This document shows positions 27,901 through 30,900 of a stretch of DNA of 64,000 nucleotides, piece after piece; position 1 is the first letter of the stretch; the number at the start of each line of letters is the position of its first letter. This DNA is from Vigna angularis (Eukaryota > Streptophyta > Magnoliopsida > Fabales > Fabaceae): the NCBI RefSeq assembly GCF_016808095.1, contig NC_068971.1:30277631-30341630 (forward strand). Direction: 5' to 3'. The position numbers were made by a program, and so were the translations under genes. Below the pieces are notes generated by a model. It made no database searches and had not been told where the DNA came from. It saw only the letters and a list, made by a program, of their open reading frames with translations.

Positions 27901-30900
27901 CAACTTATGTGGTATGAACTAAAATGTCCCATTCTGCTCATATTTTTTTCATTGTGGATTAACCTATCATACATTAGCAAAAGCCAAATATATTACACTG
28001 ACGTACTTCTTGAACAATTCAACCAAATTAACTTTGAAGTCCGTAAAAGGTTGAAGTTAAAACATTATTTTATTGTAAATTTTACTCAGAAAAAACTTGA
28101 ATATATAAACAACTCCCAATATTTTATGAACAATTCTATTAGAAATTATATAAAAACATGACATGACTTTTAGACAAAGATCTTAACTATGACAATAACT
28201 CATTTTCTTTTCTTTTTTATATATAACATTTATCTAATTCTTTTCTATGCATATTATTAGAATATCCAACTAATTAACACTCTAATAACAACTAATTAGA
28301 ATAATTCAGATTGAAAGTAGTTTAATTAAGCTGGTGTAAAACATTATATTGTTATTATTATTATTATTATTATTATTAGGGTTAATAACGATTTGGTACA
28401 TATTAACTAAACCTTTTCACTTAAAACATTCATCCTATTATATAATGTTTATTTACTGTCTGTCTCAAAAAAATTGTTTATTATTTGTCAACTATGAAAG
28501 AAAATACCATACGGATTTTTTATACTTATATATATATATACATATATATATATATTAATTTTAAATAAAATTAACTTTAAAATAATTTCAAATAAAATTA
28601 GACAATAAAATATTATTAATACAAATAGAAATAGTCTTTCTTAAAAATCAAATATGAATAAGTTATATAAAAATATAAATTTTAAAAATAACATCCACTT
28701 CATATATTTAAATAAATTAAATATATAAACATCAATTTTATAAAATTATTAAATAATTAATATTTCTTTCATTATTTAATATTTAAAGATATTTAAATAA
28801 AATTACAGTTAAAATTATTAACGATAATATATATCCGGAAATTAGATGTTATGGTATCCTTTCGTGTCCCATCAAGAAGTATATTATTAAATATTGGCTT
28901 AAACCCTTACTTGGTTCCATATTAAGAGGTGAATTTTTGTTTAGTATCCGGTTTTAAAAGTGCATGGATTGGGTTCCTACGTTATTAAAATTGTATCAAT
29001 TCAGTCCTATCCGTTTAACGGTGTTAAAATTGATAACATTGAAGTTACTGTGAGGTGACCTGTGTAAGAAATGAAGACGTGGCATTTAGTTGACTTAGAA
29101 TCATTTAACGCGGCAGCCAACGAAGGTCGTAATCACCCACATGTGTCTTGTCCTTCCACTCTTCGACGACGCTCCCCCTTTCCGTGGAGAGACCCAACGA
29201 AGACGTGATAGTTTCGTCGCCGAAGGGGACGTTCACGGCGGGGTTCAGGAGCGTGGGGGAGAACGCGTACTGCTTTGGCATTCTCGCAGGCGGAGAAGCA
29301 TAGTGGTGTGGATGGCCAACCGCGACGTTCCAATGAACGGGAAACGCTCCTTGCTCTCCCTCCTCAAGAACGACAACCTCGTGTTGTCTGACGCCGGACA
29401 TAGCAGTGTTAAGCCACCACCATTTCAATCTCTCGGAAACCGAAAAGGAAAAAAAAAAGAAAAAGAAAAAAGGAAACCCCAATCTAGGAGTGAAGGACAT
29501 GGGGAAACAGGGGAAGAAATGAAAAAAGGGTTTCCCCATTTAAAAACCCTAATGATTTTATTTCATCGGTTCAAAAATGGGAGTATAGATATCCATCCAA
29601 GCTTTCTTGAGAGGGTATAACGATGAGGTGGAACATTCACCTTGCGGAACTGAATTTATCCATCATACATCTCATGAGGCTTCAACGCCTCAAACTTTGG
29701 CTTTGGTGGCAAAACTTTGGCTTCTGATGCTACAATCTCAATTTCCATGGTAGAAGCTGTCTGATTCGAAACCATTATGTACCTGTTCAAAAAGCAAACC
29801 AAAATAACTTGATTTAAAACATACAAAAGGCAAACAAATGTTTATTTCTCCACTTCTAGTTATGAGCAGCATAATTATCAATCACAAATAGTTCTCACAA
29901 TAGTTCTCAATAGTTGTCTTCACTCATCACCGCCATAAGGGGTGAAAGCCACGTCCTTGTAGCCCTAGAGAAAGATTCCCGCGGCGATGGTTTTTGGCCG
30001 GTTAATGAAAACGAGGTCGTGGGTTTTGAATATTTCTCCGGCCACATCAACAGATGAAACGATGAACGTGGGGATTTGCACCAGCTGTAGCAAGATGAGA
30101 GGGCCATGCTTGTGAGAGAGGGCTTGCAAGGAACGGTGCGGCAACAAGCCAAGCTGATGAAGATTCCGATGAAGGGTATTTAATTTCCCCAATTTAAACA
30201 CATGGAATGTATTCTTTTGGCTGCCATGTCAACTAATGTAGCTCAACTCATTGCCACGATGACATTTCTTGCACACTTCACATCCATAGTCAGTTCAACG
30301 TTTTCAATTTTAACGCCGTTAAAGGAATAGGACTGAAGTCATACAATTTTCATAACATGGGGATCCAATGTCTTCATTTTTAAAACCGGATACTAAACAG
30401 AAATTCATCTCTTAACATGGGACCAAAGTAAGGGTTTAAGCCTTAAATATTTATATCTTGTCATATTTAATAAAAATATTCATTTAGAGTATGTTATTTA
30501 GAAAATTTATCTTGTTACTAACCTAACTATGTTAATGAATGGAGTTAAATTACTTTTATACGTGTTAAGTGAAATTTCAAGATTGTGTTAAATCAATATG
30601 TAGATGCGTTAGAAAGGATATTGCCATTGCATGGGAGGCTGTGAAACACGCGAAGAGGCCTCGCATTTGTACTTCCATTGCGACCAGCGACATTCACATG
30701 AAGCACAAGTTGCGAAAGAGTAAGAATGAGGTTATTGGGATAGCCAGGGATATGATAGCCTTTGCAAGGAGTTTGGGTTGCAATGATATTCAGTTCGGTG
30801 CTGAAGATGCCACGAGGTAAGTTTTCTTCATTTTTTTTCACACTTCATTTAAAGTTTTTAATGTTTAACATTCCTAATAATTTGTTTAGGTTTTAGAAGA

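Follow-up and report, generated by a model that had tools for sequence, protein, structure and literature searches.

Pack-MULEs are defined as elements that combine the ends of non-autonomous Mutator-like elements (MULEs), long terminal inverted repeats and 9-11 bp duplications with fragments of ordinary genes (as outlined in PMC3310237). About their abundance, one third of rice Pack-MULEs are reported to be multicopy (PMC8277862), and in most Oryza species two or more parental genes contribute to 5-10% of the putative genes derived from MULEs (PMC4858842). Cargo from several loci is on record there for rice and maize (PMC8903248, PMC4858842), and the mechanism by which gene pieces are captured is treated as not settled in the relevant text of PMC3310237 and PMC8277862. 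A literature search, with most subscription journals outside its coverage, found no publication on the azuki element described below.

The window analyzed here is a stretch of 64,000 nucleotides from Vigna angularis. It contains an element that, with high confidence, assembled its cargo from four genes and, once the chimera was complete, moved to three or more sites. Its parts are as follows.

28896-30442, 1547 bp: Pack-MULE on C2, inside intron 1 of a 2-isopropylmalate-synthase-like gene
28887-28895: left target-site duplication, TTAAATATT, exact match to 30443-30451
28896-29120, plus strand: left terminal inverted repeat, 80% to 30217-30442
29117-29400, plus strand: captured lectin piece, the 5' portion of a gene for a G-type lectin receptor kinase (C9 donor L009)
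29398-29544, minus strand: captured C3 piece, the leader or 5' upstream region of an unnamed gene (donor L035)
29531-29564, plus strand: native MULE subterminal remnant of 34 bp, stranded inside the element (33/34 to L036 and L037)
29561-29897, minus strand: captured PNO1 piece, upstream sequence and the first ~72 codons (C6 donor L010/L011)
29898-30179, minus strand: captured CYP71A1-like P450 piece, N-terminal part (V. radiata protein P0008, C1 gene L020)
30177-30442, plus strand: right subterminal region, with the right terminal inverted repeat proper at 30217-30442
30443-30451: right target-site duplication, TTAAATATT, exact match to 28887-28895

The first-pass annotation had called this a Pack-MULE with a perfect 9-bp duplication and well-matched terminal repeats of ~210 bp. 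The duplication is indeed exact, and a 9/9 match at two fixed points in the AT-rich DNA of the window has a chance probability of about 1e-4 to 2e-4. The description of the repeats holds for their outer end, where the first 60 alignment columns contain 55 identities, and not for their whole length of 225/226 bp, which aligns with 182 identities, 42 mismatches and 3 gaps (80%). Nearly all of the interior was assigned to the four donor genes or to native ends, the stretch 29898-30076 by protein similarity only, and no transposase was found in the selected frames scanned with Pfam. At the junctions the joined sequences overlap by a few bases (CCAA, TCTTGT, TTTC, and also ACAG in the other two full copies) because these bases are common to both sources. 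Terminal repeats in the ~100-500 bp range, a duplication of the 9-11 bp class, gene fragments in place of a transposase, and moved copies flanked by different duplications identify the element as a Pack-MULE, a non-autonomous Mutator-like element and a new instance of an established type.

The host gene was delimited by three exons.

24935-25242, plus strand: host exon 1, Pfam HMGL-like (1.5e-18), with a splice site
30604-30816, plus strand: host exon 2, Pfam HMGL-like (2.5e-12), with splice sites
36719-36932, plus strand: host exon 3, with an in-frame splice junction

These exons join in frame across GT..AG introns, intron 1 spanning 25243-30603, and the element therefore lies in intron 1, as had been proposed. 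Joined together, they match 2-isopropylmalate synthase (IPMS) models with a best E-value of 1.5e-90, the score of 304 bits falling below the 532-bit whole-protein cut-off because only part of the protein was compared. Further exon-like motif matches lie near 37684, 39290 and 39511.

Other elements share these introns. A second MULE-like element at 30921-32282, in intron 2, has 277-bp inverted repeats (84%) and an imperfect duplication (AATAGGATA/AATATGTTA, 7/9). At least nine other near-full-length copies of it were found at 87-91%, with 40 of 1773 candidates scored, and it is higher-copy than the 28896-30442 element. Pfam gave nothing convincing in the two frames of its cargo that were scanned. 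A further pair of elements, related to each other and oriented alike, lies at 25978-27085 (intron 1) and 32432-33689 (intron 2); their ends carry (TA)n and GGGTTTGCTAACGCGCG-like sequence in inverted arrangement, with an internal repeat spacing of ~127-145 bp.

Donors and copies were sought in the same genome (448 Mb in 33 contigs). The cargo traces to four loci on four chromosomes (C9, C3, C6 and C1), and nothing in the donor stretches fetched (L009, L010, L011, L020 and L035) matches the terminal repeats of the element. Similarity matches and these donors bear out the lectin receptor kinase (plus), PNO1 (minus) and P450 (minus) fragments named at first; the count of three source genes has to be raised to four, as 29398-29544 is an extra piece, 94% identical to C3. 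A chimeric cargo from several loci is uncommon, as had been said, with precedent in rice and maize.

The lectin piece matches Pfam B_lectin at 5e-5 with two frames joined and at 1.2e-4 in a single frame, both below the curated cut-off. It aligns to its C9 donor in two blocks (35/36 and 238/260 identities) that are 183 bp apart in the donor and are joined in the element at the TCTTGT microhomology; frames of the donor contain B_lectin, S_locus_glycop and kinase domains. The second piece matches C3:10511958-10512104 (L035 3959-4105) at 139/148 identities and lies upstream of the donor's long open frame, the first ATG of which is near L035 4245. Pfam gave no name for this donor gene in the two frames scanned. 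Directly beside this piece is the 34-bp native remnant, the counterpart of which, in L036 and L037, adjoins the inner end of related right terminal repeats.

The PNO1 piece has no Pfam match; it does match human PNO1 (6e-5) and Glycine max PNO1 (2.7e-19). At the DNA level 311/339 positions are identical to C6 donor L010, and L011 scored equally. The C6 PNO1 stretch is present twice, ~20 kb apart and 97.7% identical over 2.7 kb, and the two are identical across the captured 333 bp. A KH_PNO1_2nd domain is found in the L010 protein, and a PNO1 KH domain also in that of the C1 paralogue L012 (Pfam). This paralogue (83%) was considered as donor and ruled out at a K2P distance of 0.20. A related repeat end lies ~3 kb from it.

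For the P450 piece the Pfam match is 0.0018, below cut-off, and the best match among solved P450s 1e-6. Compared with full-length proteins it gives its best E-value with Spatholobus suberectus (1.4e-42, 74%) and its highest identity with V. radiata CYP71A1 (88%, 2e-38); over 29898-30179 protein identity to V. radiata P0008 is 83%. Positions 30077-30179 are 95% identical over 104 bp to the C1 P450 gene L020. That gene matches P0008 residues 1-84 and then directly 383-511, so the counterpart of codons 85-382 is missing from it in the assembly. This shortened CYP71A1-like gene occupies L020 3595-4235 (C1:13506094-13506734), and related P450 sequences (67-70%) lie ~9-35 kb from it. For 29898-30076, no close donor was found in the assembly among the 15 scored candidates, which were all the first-look candidates for 29900-30216. 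What matches the stretch before 30077 elsewhere are copies of the element, short pieces (46-49 bp) at C1:33361927 and C5:13150411, and the paralogues at 67-70%. Of the two loci with short pieces, the one on C1 (L021) also has a related right repeat, which was looked for and not found in the stretch from C5 (L022).

The search for copies of the element gave 82 match rows, and 40 of 900 candidates were scored, so that the counts are lower bounds. It yielded at least two further full-length chimeras, at C8:15199465 (L002, 91%) and C1:36849168 (L003, 90%). The C8 copy is flanked by ATAATCTTA (9/9) and the C1 copy by a duplication of 8/9 at a TAAAAAAA site of low complexity. The three full copies agree in every internal junction. 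As one chimera is present at three sites with their own duplications, it was formed once and moved later. Matches at C10:28860274, C10:28772059 and C8:3374189 were considered as independent copies and rejected, being duplicates of the C8:15199465 locus including flanking sequence; L004-L006 were left out of the insertion count for this reason. L014 (C10:28858000) and L002 have flanking sequence in common, ~0.9 kb on the right and ~1.1 kb on the left; L005 and L015 were compared with L004 and L014 only, L015 covering just ~0.2 kb of left flank. In the duplicated loci the left half of the element is replaced by a 1.2-kb insert, LTR-like by eye.

Three related elements, the sisters, lie on C9 (L007, duplication 9/9), C4 (L008, 7/9) and C9 (L013, left end truncated). 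The lectin-leader part is retained in them as far as element position 669 (L007 and L008) or 739 (L013), as is the right part from about 1172-1187; their middles differ from that of the window element. The middle of L007 is 86% identical to a MORN-repeat gene on C2 and most of it is also found in L008, and L013 runs ~70 bp into PNO1 before continuing as other sequence. The right breakpoint is common to the three sisters, with or without PNO1 sequence, and coincides with the palindrome TGGGGACCTGCCCCA; the deletion in the P450 parent is close to this palindrome. Another member with related ends, at C11:17461800-17464300 (L023), has a GC-rich cargo (50%).

The insertion had been thought fairly recent, a dating that the distances do not uphold. 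K2P values between the three full copies are 0.082, 0.073 and 0.083, and those from copy to donor are 0.067-0.103 for lectin and 0.045-0.063 for PNO1. At substitution rates of 6e-9 to 1.3e-8 per site and year, the divergence corresponds to about 3-7 million years. The probability that a 9-bp duplication is still perfect after 3-4.5% change per site is 0.44-0.58. With copies 7-8% apart and about even odds of a perfect duplication, the insertion need not be recent. In a CpG-decay test for silencing, changes at CG sites exceeded those at other sites in the L003 lectin piece (13/63) and not clearly so in E1 (5/63).

The source of the captured pieces was probably genomic DNA, to which their mixed orientations and non-coding upstream sequence point, and capture probably took at least two rounds. 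In an older element the lectin piece and the C3 leader would have stood beside the right subterminal region. A break would have opened within that region, and template switching at short stretches of shared sequence would have filled it with DNA from PNO1 and the P450, so that the native remnant of 34 bp was left behind between the rounds of capture. We infer this order from that one remnant and from the architecture of the element. Transposase supplied in trans may then have moved the finished chimera, as its MULE features suggest, and the window copy would be removed with the intron while it decays. An identical structure in all three full copies would equally be expected if all four pieces had been taken in a single template-switching event, which we consider unlikely, since native MULE sequence separates the second piece from the third, and in two sisters another sequence follows the first two pieces in place of the third.

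A second alternative holds that the chimera is a young host gene, that the C1 copy makes spliced RNA and protein, and that the family is kept for its function. The C1 copy (C1:36849168-36850678) is annotated as protein-coding, LR48_Vigan01g096300 / VIGAN_01219400, in two V. angularis annotations, with a gene model that joins the PNO1 start to an antisense-lectin frame. Both annotations and the residues recovered favor this interpretation: removal of a 176-bp GT..AG intron from L003 gives the first 142/142 compared residues of V. angularis P0004 (192 aa), an agreement that also marks the genome as that of V. angularis or a near-identical one. Gene models by themselves are weak support, and other results speak against it. 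The PNO1 frame of the window copy is broken by one stop and one frameshift, and all three full copies carry a 5-bp deletion in the lectin frame. Among the 5 + 3 matches of two protein searches the junction is found in only two V. angularis models, and protein P0006, considered as a possible further copy and resembling a lectin gene read in an antisense frame, has the lectin part only. We regard a young gene as improbable, more so than a single capture event; with its broken frames, the cargo at the window site is not a gene. An effect through RNA is a separate matter: 87 21-mers of the element are exact matches in the fetched C6 PNO1 locus, so that a small-RNA effect on PNO1 is possible, and the PNO1 and P450 pieces, antisense to the predicted host transcript, could possibly give small RNAs.

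Least probable is that the pieces were captured as transcripts or that the element belongs to the Helitrons or Pack-CACTAs. Small elements with several gene pieces occur in those groups too, and the upstream sequence might be untranslated RNA leader. Helitron and CACTA are excluded by the long terminal inverted repeats and by the 9-bp duplications present at 3/3 full-length sites (9/9, 9/9, 8/9). The mixed orientations, the non-coding pieces and what looks by eye like an intron acceptor ahead of the PNO1 ATG argue against RNA capture, without excluding it.

Beyond assembly from four genes and later movement, we put forward a more speculative and rather doubtful proposal, that the family is a repeatedly refilled cassette. 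It would have a fixed left arm (lectin and C3 leader), a fixed right arm (P450 and native end) and an exchangeable middle (PNO1, the MORN-gene piece or a third), with its right breakpoint on TGGGGACCTGCCCCA near the break in the parent P450. Its copies would hold the only long close match in the assembly to P450 DNA lost by the parent, and one copy would make a spliced chimeric transcript.

Donors, finished copies, sisters with alternative middles and a native remnant occur together within one genome, so that breakpoints and the order of capture can be studied directly. The family also provides a case of a transposon copy that two public annotations list as protein-coding, and of element copies retaining P450 DNA that the parent gene, in the assembly, no longer has.

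Compared with described systems, the azuki element is closest to the rice Pack-MULEs, with which it shares MULE ends, long terminal repeats, 9-11 bp duplications, gene fragments and multicopy members; unlike them it has four donors in 1.5 kb, a native remnant, sisters that indicate an order, and a legume host. Pack-TYPE elements, including Pack-CACTA, likewise carry cargo from multiple chromosomal loci (PMC8903248), whereas the azuki element has MULE-type ends and 9-bp duplications. Tgm-Express elements of soybean are legume elements with host gene fragments (PMC1947982), but belong to the CACTA superfamily. The FoSTeST and gap-filling models for Pack-TIRs resemble the route favored here, with template switching at short homology followed by transposition to several sites; they concern animal systems, and their extension to plant Pack-MULEs is left open in that source (PMC8277862).
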